Assembly (NCBI GenBank): GCA_021789935.1
Contig: JAJYIR010000003.1
Coordinates: 62,001 to 126,000, forward strand
Source of the DNA: Nitrospirota bacterium
Lineage (GTDB): Bacteria > Nitrospirota > Thermodesulfovibrionia > Thermodesulfovibrionales > JdFR-88
Length of the DNA: 64,000 bases
Direction of reading: 5' to 3'
Shown: positions 11,618 to 14,291 of the stretch, piece after piece
How the letters are laid out: each line of letters starts with the position of its first letter
Position numbering within the stretch: position 1 is the stretch's first letter
Notes under the pieces: model-generated
The model's input: only the letters and a program-made list of their open reading frames with translations
What the model was told of the DNA's origin: nothing
The model's database searches: none
Program-made: the position numbers and the translations under genes

Positions 11618-12643
11618 TTAGGGAAGGATTTCCCATATACCCTTGACCTTCCCGGAACATACCGGGCACACGCCTTCCCTCTTGAGCTTCACAGCGAGTA
11701 TTCGATAGCCGCTTCGTGAGACAACAACCGCCCCGCAGGAAGGGCAACAGGTGTCCTCACCGCCCTCCCCCGGCACATTACCCAGGTAAACGTGTTTGAG
11801 TCCCTCCTCGAATCCTATCTCCCTGGCCCTCCTTAGGGTGCCCACCGGAGTGGGAGGGCTATCCAAGAGCCGGTAGGCAGGATAAAACTGGCTTATATGC
11901 CATGGGATGAAGGGGTCCACCGACTGTATGAACCTCGCGATGTCCCTTAACACCTCATCCGAGTCATTATGTCCGGGGATGACAAGCGTGGTGATCTCAA
12001 CCCACACTCCTTTTTCCTTCATCAGTTTTACTGTCTCCTTCACAGGGGCCGCCCTGGCATGGCAAATCTCCCGATAAAATTTTTCATCGCCTTTTAAATC
12101 GATGTTGTTTGCGTCCAGGTACGGAGCAATGGCAACGGCGCTCTCGGGCGTCATAAACCCATTGCTCACAAACACGTTCCTTATGCCGCGCCCTCTGGCA
12201 AGAACAGCGCAGTCAAGGGCGAACTCCAAAAAAATGGTGGGTTCCGTGTAGGTATAGGAAATGCTCTTGCAGCCCTTCTCACCCGCGGCGGAAACCACGG
12301 CCTCAGGGGTCATGTCCGTGCCGGGGATGCCGACATCGGGCCTTTCCCTCGGGAATTGGGATATCTCGTAGTTCTGGCAGTGTTCACACCTGAAGTTGCA
12401 GCCGGCGGTTGCTATGGAATATGAAAGCGATCCGGGCAGGAAATGATAAAGGGGCTTCTTTTCTATCGGGTCCACATTCATTGCGGCAATCTTGCCATAG
12501 ACGAGAGTATAGAGCGTACCCGCCCGGTTCTCCCGGACGGCGCAGATGCCCCTTTTACCCTCCCCTATAACGCAGCGATGGGCGCACAGAAAGCAGCGCA
12601 CGGCGGCTCCGTCCTTCTTTTCATAAAACATGGCTTCTTTCAT
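11618..12643 (-). CDS. amrS: AmmeMemoRadiSam system radical SAM enzyme (AmrS)
   Basis: 341-residue radical SAM protein related to pyruvate-formate-lyase activating enzymes. The 4Fe-4S/SAM motif is CNFRCEHC (C82, C86, C89) inside ATAGCNFRCEHCQNYEIS. An N-terminal Cys cluster (RCFLCAHRC ... GICAVREN) and C-terminal zinc-ribbon-like pairs (CCPSCG, CPVCSGK) are also present. The start is ATG 12643 (MKEAMFYEKK); a longer open frame to 12793 lacks family sequence. AmrS is usually encoded with AMMECR1 and MEMO homologues, which are not in this window. The reaction remains unknown in the literature I recall. Confidence 0.88.
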   Translation of the reverse strand: MKEAMFYEKKDGAAVRCFLCAHRCVIGEGKRGICAVRENRAGTLYTLVYGKIAAMNVDPIEKKPLYHFLPGSLSYSIATAGCNFRCEHCQNYEISQFPRERPDVGIPGTDMTPEAVVSAAGEKGCKSISYTYTEPTIFLEFALDCAVLARGRGIRNVFVSNGFMTPESAVAIAPYLDANNIDLKGDEKFYREICHARAAPVKETVKLMKEKGVWVEITTLVIPGHNDSDEVLRDIARFIQSVDPFIPWHISQFYPAYRLLDSPPTPVGTLRRAREIGFEEGLKHVYLGNVPGEGGEDTCCPSCGAVVVSRSGYRILAVKLKREGVCPVCSGKVKGIWEILP

Positions 12644-12679: not shown

Positions 12680-12708
12680 TTGAATTTGCCTTGCCACGGG
12701 ATTATAAT
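12680..12708 (+). promoter_or_regulatory. Sigma70-type promoter ahead of the Cys-rich ORF and nfeD
   Basis: TTGAAT at 12680-12685, a 17-base spacer, and a perfect TATAAT at 12703-12708, in the divergent gap after amrS. The expected transcription start (6-8 bases downstream) falls at 12714-12716, on the ATG of the Cys-rich ORF, which would give a leaderless message. Confidence 0.55.
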
Positions 12709-12713
12709 TGGTT

Positions 12714-12878
12714 ATGGAAAAAGGCAGGGGAATTTGCCAGCTTTGCGGTGAACCTGGAAACAGGTGCGCCTGCGGTGAAGGGTGAGCACACATCTGCCCC
12801 CTGGACCTGGGGGAACCATTCTGCCCCGTCTGTAAACCGGACCCCGGCTCTTGCGTTGAGGAAAGGATCGTTCCCTGA
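12714..12878 (+). CDS. Candidate Cys-rich small protein with an in-frame TGA (possible selenoprotein or nonsense pseudogene)
   Basis: A 54-codon frame not previously delimited by stop-to-stop ORF logic. ATG 12714 reads 23 codons, meets TGA at 12783-12785, then continues 30 more codons to TGA at 12876-12878. Both halves are Cys-rich and look like one zinc-ribbon-like protein: ICQLCGEP, RCACGEG, [TGA], AHICPL, FCPVCKP, SCVEE. Residue 24 (the TGA) lies midway between C20 and C28, the spacing expected of another Cys. A hairpin CCCCC-TGGACCT-GGGGG (12797-12813) begins 11 bases after the TGA. No Shine-Dalgarno precedes the ATG; a promoter ends 5 bases upstream. A sequencing error or pseudogene is the alternative. 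Confidence 0.4.
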
Positions 12879-12944
12879 TCTCCGCCCCAAGGGATCGATT
12901 TCCCTTTAATTTCGCTTTCGTTGCGCGTGAAGTCAGGATAAAAT

Positions 12945-14291
12945 ATGGCTATGTGTAAAATGCGTCATTTTTTTCTTCTCTTGCTCCTTTTTCTGTTGTC
13001 TCTGCCTTGTGTTTCATGGGCCAAGGCACAGCAAAATACACAGCAAGAAAGGCCCCGGATCATTGTCATAGATTACGAAGGCGTGATAAACCCTGTCGCA
13101 AGCCAGTACATGGAGGAAAATATCCGGCTGGCAAACAGGTCTGACGCTCAGGCGCTTGTCATAGAGCTGGACACGCCGGGAGGCCTGGACAGCTCCATGC
13201 GCTCCATAATCAAATCTATAATCGGAAGCGATGTGCCGGTAGTGGTCTACGTCGCGCCCAACGGCGCCAGGGCGGCCTCTGCGGGTGTCTTTATCACCCT
13301 TGCGGCAAATGTGGCGGCAATGGCCCCCGGCACAAACATCGGAGCAGCCCATCCGGTCGAGATAGGCGGGAAGCTTGGCAAGACGATGGAGGAAAAAGTC
13401 ACAAACGATGCCGTCGCCTACATAAAATCCATCGCCCAGTTAAGGGGGCGAAATGCCCAGTGGGCTGAAAAGGCAGTGAGGGAAAGCATCTCCTCCACGG
13501 CCAGCGAGGCCCTGGAGAACGGCGTAATAAATCTTATAGCCCGGAATCGTGGTGACCTTTTTGAAAAACTTAACGGCGTGAAGGTCGTTACCGCCAGCGG
13601 GCCAAGGGTGATAAACACAACAGGGGCGGAAGTGACAGTAAAACAGATGGGGTTCAGACTCAGGGCGCTCTCCGCCCTGAGTGATCCGAATGTGGCCTAT
13701 ATTTTGATGCTTCTGGGCTTTTATGGTATCTTTTTTGAGATAGTCAGCCCCGGGGCCATACTGCCAGGTGTTATCGGGGCCATTTCACTTATAACGGCTT
13801 TTTATGCGTTCCAGATGCTTCCGGTAAACTACGCGGGGGTACTTTTGGTCCTTCTTGCCATTGTCATGTTTGTCCTTGACGTCAAGCTGGCCTCTCATGG
13901 CGCGCTGACCGCCGGCGGGATAATTTCCATGACAATAGGCTCCCTGATGCTCTTTGAAAGGGGCGGGCCGCTGCTGCAGCTTTCTATCGCGGTCATCGTT
14001 CCTGCTGTTGCAGTCACGGTCCTTTTTTTCTTTTTTACCGTAAAGCTGGCGATTGAGGCCAGGCGCAGAAAGCCGGTCACGGGCATGGAAGGGCTGAAAG
14101 GCGAAACGGGCTTCGCAACCACTGAAATAAACGTACAGGGTACGGCAAGGGTCCATGGAGAACTGTGGTCTGCCTGGTCCGAGGAGCCCATAAAGGCCGG
14201 TGAACGGGTCGAGGTCTTGTCTATGGAAGGGCTGAAACTGAAAGTAAAAAAAGCGCAAAAAAATACGGAAGCCAAGGAGGCAGGAAAATGA
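12945..14291 (+). CDS. nfeD: NfeD-family membrane serine protease-like protein (NfeD1b type)
   Basis: 448-residue membrane protein. Signal sequence ([19 protein letters not shown]), then a ClpP/SppA-like protease domain (about 35-220) with [10 protein letters not shown] and [19 protein letters not shown] containing the presumptive catalytic Ser, then four to five membrane segments (about 245-370), and a C-terminal OB-fold NfeD domain ([14 protein letters not shown] ... [16 protein letters not shown]). It partners with the slipin encoded next, whose start overlaps its stop by 4 bases; in studied systems NfeD proteases cleave their stomatin partner. The first of several nearby Met codons is used as start. 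Confidence 0.92.

Follow-up and report, generated by a model that had tools for sequence, protein, structure and literature searches.

An in-frame UGA in a small cysteine-rich gene of Nitrospirota: a candidate selenoprotein family

We analyzed a stretch of 64,000 nucleotides (nt) from a Nitrospirota bacterium (contig JAJYIR010000003.1 of assembly GCA_021789935.1, positions 62,001 to 126,000; hereafter the window). On its forward strand, positions 12714–12878, there is a 54-codon frame broken only by a TGA at 12783–12785 (codon 24). The question raised by this locus is whether it is a single small gene in which the internal UGA is read as selenocysteine (Sec, U), or a gene damaged by mutation or by a sequencing error. 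An earlier note, made from the sequence alone, had proposed the former and named the latter as rivals. Translation of the region gives MEKGRGICQLCGEPGNRCACGEG*AHICPLDLGEPFCPVCKPDPGSCVEERIVP, in which the asterisk stands for the TGA of codon 24, with the terminal stop TGA at 12876–12878 and cysteines at codons 8, 11, 18, 20, 28, 37, 40 and 47; thus, the frame, the Cys codons and the TGA position given in the note were borne out to the base. From the comparative evidence, it is very probable that the gene at 12714–12878 is intact and encodes a small selenoprotein, with UGA24 read as Sec.

Codon 24 and the protein sequence around it

We searched 61 related genomes in all six frames, using as query the readthrough peptide with Cys at the TGA position. 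About half of the genomes had significant homologs, and the majority of these contained a single in-frame TGA. This TGA fell on the identical codon in these loci, with Cys in its place in four of them (L006, L007, L009 and L018). The earlier note had expected Cys or TGA at codon 24 of the homologs of a selenoprotein, along with conservation of the downstream half; we observed nothing else at codon 24, and the second half was conserved in the relatives. Their consensus is, roughly, MExCPVCxxPxDxCxCCPE-U-GHVCPLDLGExYCPVCKPxP, and the central cluster reads CxCCPEUGHxC in most of them.

By profile search, the family was present in 75 of the 176 genomes of the order (Thermodesulfovibrionales) and also in 29 sampled genomes from other orders and classes of Nitrospirota. 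The genomes carrying it are Nitrospirota metagenome-assembled genomes, largely from Thermodesulfovibrionales, with one locus (L061) in a genome labeled Deltaproteobacteria. No relatives were found in phages, plasmids or viral contigs.

The order-level scan left codon 24 open to any residue. Among the 68 distinct loci that it covered, there were 55 with TGA, 13 with Cys and none with any other codon. The phylum-wide tally, with other orders and classes included, gave 68 TGA and 29 Cys genes under a search pattern that admitted only these two states. The comparison between genomes thus shows that, across dozens of species, UGA24 stays at the same position and that Cys is its only replacement. 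Seven GTDB families (f1, f2, f6, f8, f10, f12 and f13) contain both Sec and Cys forms, therefore the exchange between them happened several times. Two genomes have two copies each, of which one has Cys at codon 24 and the other TGA: L180 and L189 in G417, and L178 and L204 in G321, where the TGA copy looks degenerate. A separate observation concerns a Cys-type homolog (L198, genome G374), which has an insertion of several residues (VGTTRFR) immediately upstream of codon 24.

In the alignment of 64 members, the invariant columns are Sec/Cys24, H26, C28, L30, D31, G33, C37, P38 and C40, while C8, C11, C18 and C20 are nearly invariant, so that conserved columns flank codon 24 on both sides. These residues make up a first CxxC knuckle, C8-x2-C11 (12735–12746, forward strand, as are all features of the gene given below), a central cluster, C18-x-C20-x3-U24-x-H26-x-C28 (12765–12797), and a second knuckle, C37-P-x-C40 (12822–12833). 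All the Cys positions listed in the earlier note were exact, but the conserved core stops at about codon 44 and does not include C47. Among the Sec genes, the median pairwise ratio of nonsynonymous to synonymous substitution rates (dN/dS) over the 18 codons downstream of the TGA was 0.107; comparison of the homologs thus shows the frame beyond the UGA to be under purifying selection.

The hairpin downstream of the UGA

The earlier note had described a hairpin resembling a selenocysteine insertion sequence (SECIS) at 12797–12813. The stem is indeed present (CCCCC at 12797–12801 pairing with GGGGG at 12809–12813), as is the loop TGGACCT (12802–12808), which starts 16 nt after the TGA and has G as its second base. 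In the model of bacterial SECIS elements (bSECIS), the loop has 3–9 nt, the stem 4–16 base pairs (bp), G occupies one of the first two loop positions, the distance from the UGA is 16–37 nt and the minimum free energy is at most −7.5 kcal/mol (PMC13188914). With a loop of 7 nt (UGGACCU), a stem of 5 bp, a spacing of 16 nt and −10.6 kcal/mol, the window hairpin lies within all of these limits. An Rfam scan of the gene region gave no match.

A dinucleotide shuffle of a single 48-nt stretch produced no folding signal (z 0.11). Since the hairpin sits in coding sequence, the control that we used leaves the peptide unchanged and draws its synonymous codons anew. Against such recodings, the 22-nt hairpin of the window had z −3.12 (p 0.003). 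For the Sec genes of the order, the mean z was −2.31, with p ≤ 0.05 in 42 of 55 genes, compared to a mean z of −0.34 and p ≤ 0.05 in only 1 of 13 for the Cys genes. The Mann-Whitney p-value for this difference was 4.7e-7 within the order and 1.2e-11 when further orders and classes were added (mean z about −2 for TGA genes and about 0 for Cys genes); these p-values overstate the evidence, as related genes were treated as independent, yet the Sec and Cys groups are intermixed on the tree. Stability of the hairpin, therefore, follows the presence of TGA versus Cys.

The same difference is seen in the pairing itself. Stem cells were paired in 92.9% of cases in Sec genes and in 60% in Cys genes, with the pairing held through wobble positions. 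The stem requires GGG as the codon of Gly33; this codon was used in 58 of 67 Sec genes and in 5 of 29 Cys genes, while it makes up 23% of Gly codons overall (p 9e-11). Two loci of another class, L199 and L202, have a strong stem built from a different sequence. Taken across homologs, the comparison shows a hairpin that is maintained through synonymous codon choice in the UGA genes and not in the Cys genes. Since dozens of genomes conserve the frame, the place of the TGA within it and the hairpin, their combination is not a matter of chance.

Host machinery, promoter and competing readings

The genome of the window (G000) encodes SelB (contig C22, 2541–4397) and SelA (contig C23, 3477–4826). 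Its selD gene (contig C40, 37940–38863) also carries an in-frame TGA, at the U of SSCSGUAAK, and thus encodes a Sec protein, which shows that UGA is used for Sec in this genome. The earlier note had remarked that TGA is otherwise a stop in the window; this is true, but it is no objection to Sec, given the Sec-encoding TGA in selD. In the reading that we favor, SelB with Sec-tRNA-Sec and GTP would bind the hairpin, 11–28 nt downstream of the UGA, and insert Sec, as in the established bacterial pathway. The product would be a protein of 54 residues, of which some 41–45 are conserved.

Upstream of the gene there is a promoter-like sequence, TTGAAT-17-TATAAT (12680–12708), with its putative −10 box ending 5 nt before the ATG. 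An exact TATAAT 3–10 nt upstream of the ATG was found in 47 of the 64 family genes of the order, compared to 10 of 375 neighboring long open frames; outside the order it was seen in only 1 of 27 genes. Few of the family genes of the order have a GGAGG-like ribosome binding site. Because the promoter stands immediately before the ATG, the simplest reading is that the gene is transcribed alone, as a leaderless mRNA. The placement of the promoter would also fix the start codon.

Several observations weigh against the selenoprotein reading. Within the order, no two-sided compensatory changes were found in the fixed 5-bp stem, and its support there consists of conserved pairing. One Sec lineage (L189 and L191–L193) lacks a strong hairpin at the usual place; the downstream stretch in these four loci is GCAGCCTTGATAACGGGGAA and similar, and the lineage may use another type of bSECIS. 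The tRNA-Sec was not found in the G000 draft of 60 contigs by a covariance model, by BLASTN with the gene of a congener, by pattern or by synteny. On this point, the expectation of the earlier note was thus confirmed for SelA, SelB and a Sec-type SelD, but not for tRNA-Sec. A tRNA-SeC (tca) gene is present in the congeners G001 and G003, and the genes flanking it in G003 map to two different G000 contigs; we take its absence from the draft to reflect a probable assembly gap. Finally, full-length SelA is missing from three TGA-bearing drafts (G041, G391 and G246), and a fourth (G205) has a SelA fragment.

We considered three other explanations of the locus. The frame could be a nonsense pseudogene or carry a sequencing error, with TGC or TGT of a Cys-type ancestor changed to TGA. 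Decay does occur in this family: one copy (L206, genome G040) has an in-frame TAA and has lost several Cys, another (L195, G413) has TGA at Gly33, and a third (L207, G099), otherwise of Cys type, has TAG in its second half. Still, a random nonsense mutation would not settle on one codon, while dozens of genomes that were assembled separately have the same TGA, and the hairpin is specific to the TGA genes. The conservation of the intact downstream frame, with dN/dS of about 0.11, could not result from a pseudogene or an error. We therefore consider this explanation extremely unlikely, and both rivals named in the earlier note may be regarded as excluded by the retention of the TGA in independent species.

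The TGA could also be read in a way other than Sec, by general readthrough or by reassignment to Trp, Cys or Gly. Such a reading gains from the comparative nature of the SECIS support and from the tRNA-Sec missing in the draft, but the sole alternative residue at codon 24 is Cys, the usual counterpart of Sec; neither Trp nor Gly occurs there in intact copies. The genome encodes SelA and SelB together with a SelD that contains Sec, and TGA ends other genes in the window as well as the gene itself, which makes this option very improbable. In addition, two other open frames overlap the gene, one on the forward strand (12691–12909, 72 residues) and one on the reverse strand (12702–12890, 62 residues), and the real gene might be either of them, with the Sec frame incidental. 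Both are indeed open, but the conservation, the invariant Cys and the Sec/Cys pairing are all in the Sec frame, the pattern of synonymous changes fits that frame and the putative promoter is positioned on its ATG; the probability of this explanation is negligible. The reading of 12714–12878 as a small selenoprotein gene, on the other hand, is supported jointly by TGA or Cys at codon 24, the downstream conservation, the hairpin and the SelA, SelB and Sec-SelD of the host.

Neighborhood, possible function and relation to known families

In the window, the divergent neighbor of the gene is a radical SAM gene of the AmmeMemoRadiSam system (about 11618–12643, reverse strand, TIGR04337), and the downstream neighbor is an nfeD gene (12945–14291, forward strand). 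A terminator-like stem-loop at 12876–12897 is weak, with 0.7 such structures expected by chance in the region. The downstream gene varies by lineage: NfeD in the family to which the window belongs, DUF520/YajQ at about 20 loci, a RarA/MgsA-type AAA ATPase at eight, and others. Independent transcription would fit such a changing neighborhood. Since the downstream gene differs by lineage, with no functional link, we rejected the neighborhood as a guide to function. We also found it improbable that the peptide is a substrate of the AmmeMemoRadiSam radical SAM enzyme, as the two adjoin in only a few close relatives, in the family of the window.

Searches for similarity to known proteins gave little. 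The window protein had no meaningful match among the Pfam and NCBIfam models, and none in Pfam at E ≤ 1. Weak Pfam matches to zinc-ribbon, rubredoxin-like and RING knuckle domains (PF13248, PF13240, PF21349 and PF13920) were seen in 9–17 of the 64 members (best E 1.8e-4), all of them short and near chance. The AlphaFold models were of low confidence (predicted local distance difference test score 73, predicted template modeling score 0.35). Foldseek gave nothing at E ≤ 0.001, its best matches being RING and rubredoxin at E 5–8, and among solved structures a search by sequence gave only short Cys-motif matches.

With regard to function, we propose with lower confidence that a metal, for instance zinc, is bound by the knuckles C8-x2-C11 and C37-P-x-C40 in the manner of rubredoxin-like and zinc-ribbon knuckles. 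The two knuckles would hold in place the C18/C20/U24/H26/C28 cluster, a cytosolic site for selenol-based redox chemistry or for a soft metal. CPxC knuckles, with their proline, are typical of metal sites in zinc ribbons and rubredoxins. The CxxC and CPxC knuckles are common to the family and to zinc-ribbon, rubredoxin-like and RING domains, and the ends of TRIM RING domains resemble the stretch LDxGExxCPxC; the difference is that no selenocysteine member of these domains is listed in the catalog of PMC13188914. Counting against the metal site is its basis in a motif pattern, together with weak Pfam matches, low-confidence AlphaFold models and no significant fold match. As a guess, the product may be a small knuckle protein of the cytosol, in which the C-x-C-(C)-x2-U-x-H-x-C cluster forms either a selenol redox center or a second metal site that has Sec among its ligands.

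A thiol/selenol redox protein with no bound metal, a peroxidase or a disulfide carrier, is a possibility that we hold only tentatively. The central C-x-C-C-x2-U cluster is rich in possible resolving Cys, and redox enzymes account for most of the selenoproteins whose function is known (PMC13188914). However, the window gene lacks the usual UxxC or CxxU redox motif at Sec, about 45 residues are too few for a thioredoxin-like fold, and both the proline-containing knuckles and the weak Pfam matches point to metal. It is rather unlikely, though conceivable, that Sec, within the Cys/His cluster, acts to bind or trap a metalloid or a soft metal, in which case this leaderless, phylum-wide family of about 45 residues would be a selenium analog of a metallothionein-like or zinc-finger protein.

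The family has what known bacterial selenoproteins share, an in-frame UGA with Cys orthologs, a bSECIS just downstream and a host with SelA, SelB and SelD. In the 2026 catalog of 119 prokaryotic selenoprotein families and subfamilies (PMC13188914, Table 1), no entry matches it in size, sequence or motif, and its own motif, C-x-C-C-x2-U-[GSAE]-H-x-C-x2-D-x-G-x3-C-P-x-C, is absent. NF041197 (dual CXXC motif small (seleno)protein; OS_HP3 / hypothetical protein DW) is, by its name, likewise small with two CxxC motifs, but none of the 64 family members matched it at E ≤ 1, and its Sec motif in the catalog is RxU or GxU. The Fe-S oxidoreductase-like selenoprotein PTHR43551 has the UGH motif in common with the family, whose members have a length of only 41–54 residues; NCBIfam matches of the Fe-S oxidoreductase type (DsrK, GlpC and HmcF) were limited to one member each, at E 0.35–0.94. 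In the literature, we found no paper with the family motif or with a comparable Nitrospirota family. The suggestion that the protein is perhaps undescribed stands as far as it could be checked, with no match in Pfam, NCBIfam or the catalog. The family, therefore, appears to be an undescribed selenoprotein family of unusual architecture, in a comparison outside of which lay the full NCBI protein database.

The finding would add to the known selenoproteins a family that is among the smallest and that many Nitrospirota of anaerobic and subsurface kinds have retained. Automatic annotation misses the gene, which is split at the UGA and falls below the usual length limits of gene calling. The repeated exchange of Sec and Cys within families, with decay of the hairpin after loss of the UGA, offers a compact natural test case for the gain and loss of Sec. 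If the mRNA is indeed leaderless, the family also raises the question of how SelB-dependent recoding would work in a message that has no leader, at a distance of 69 nt from its 5′ end.
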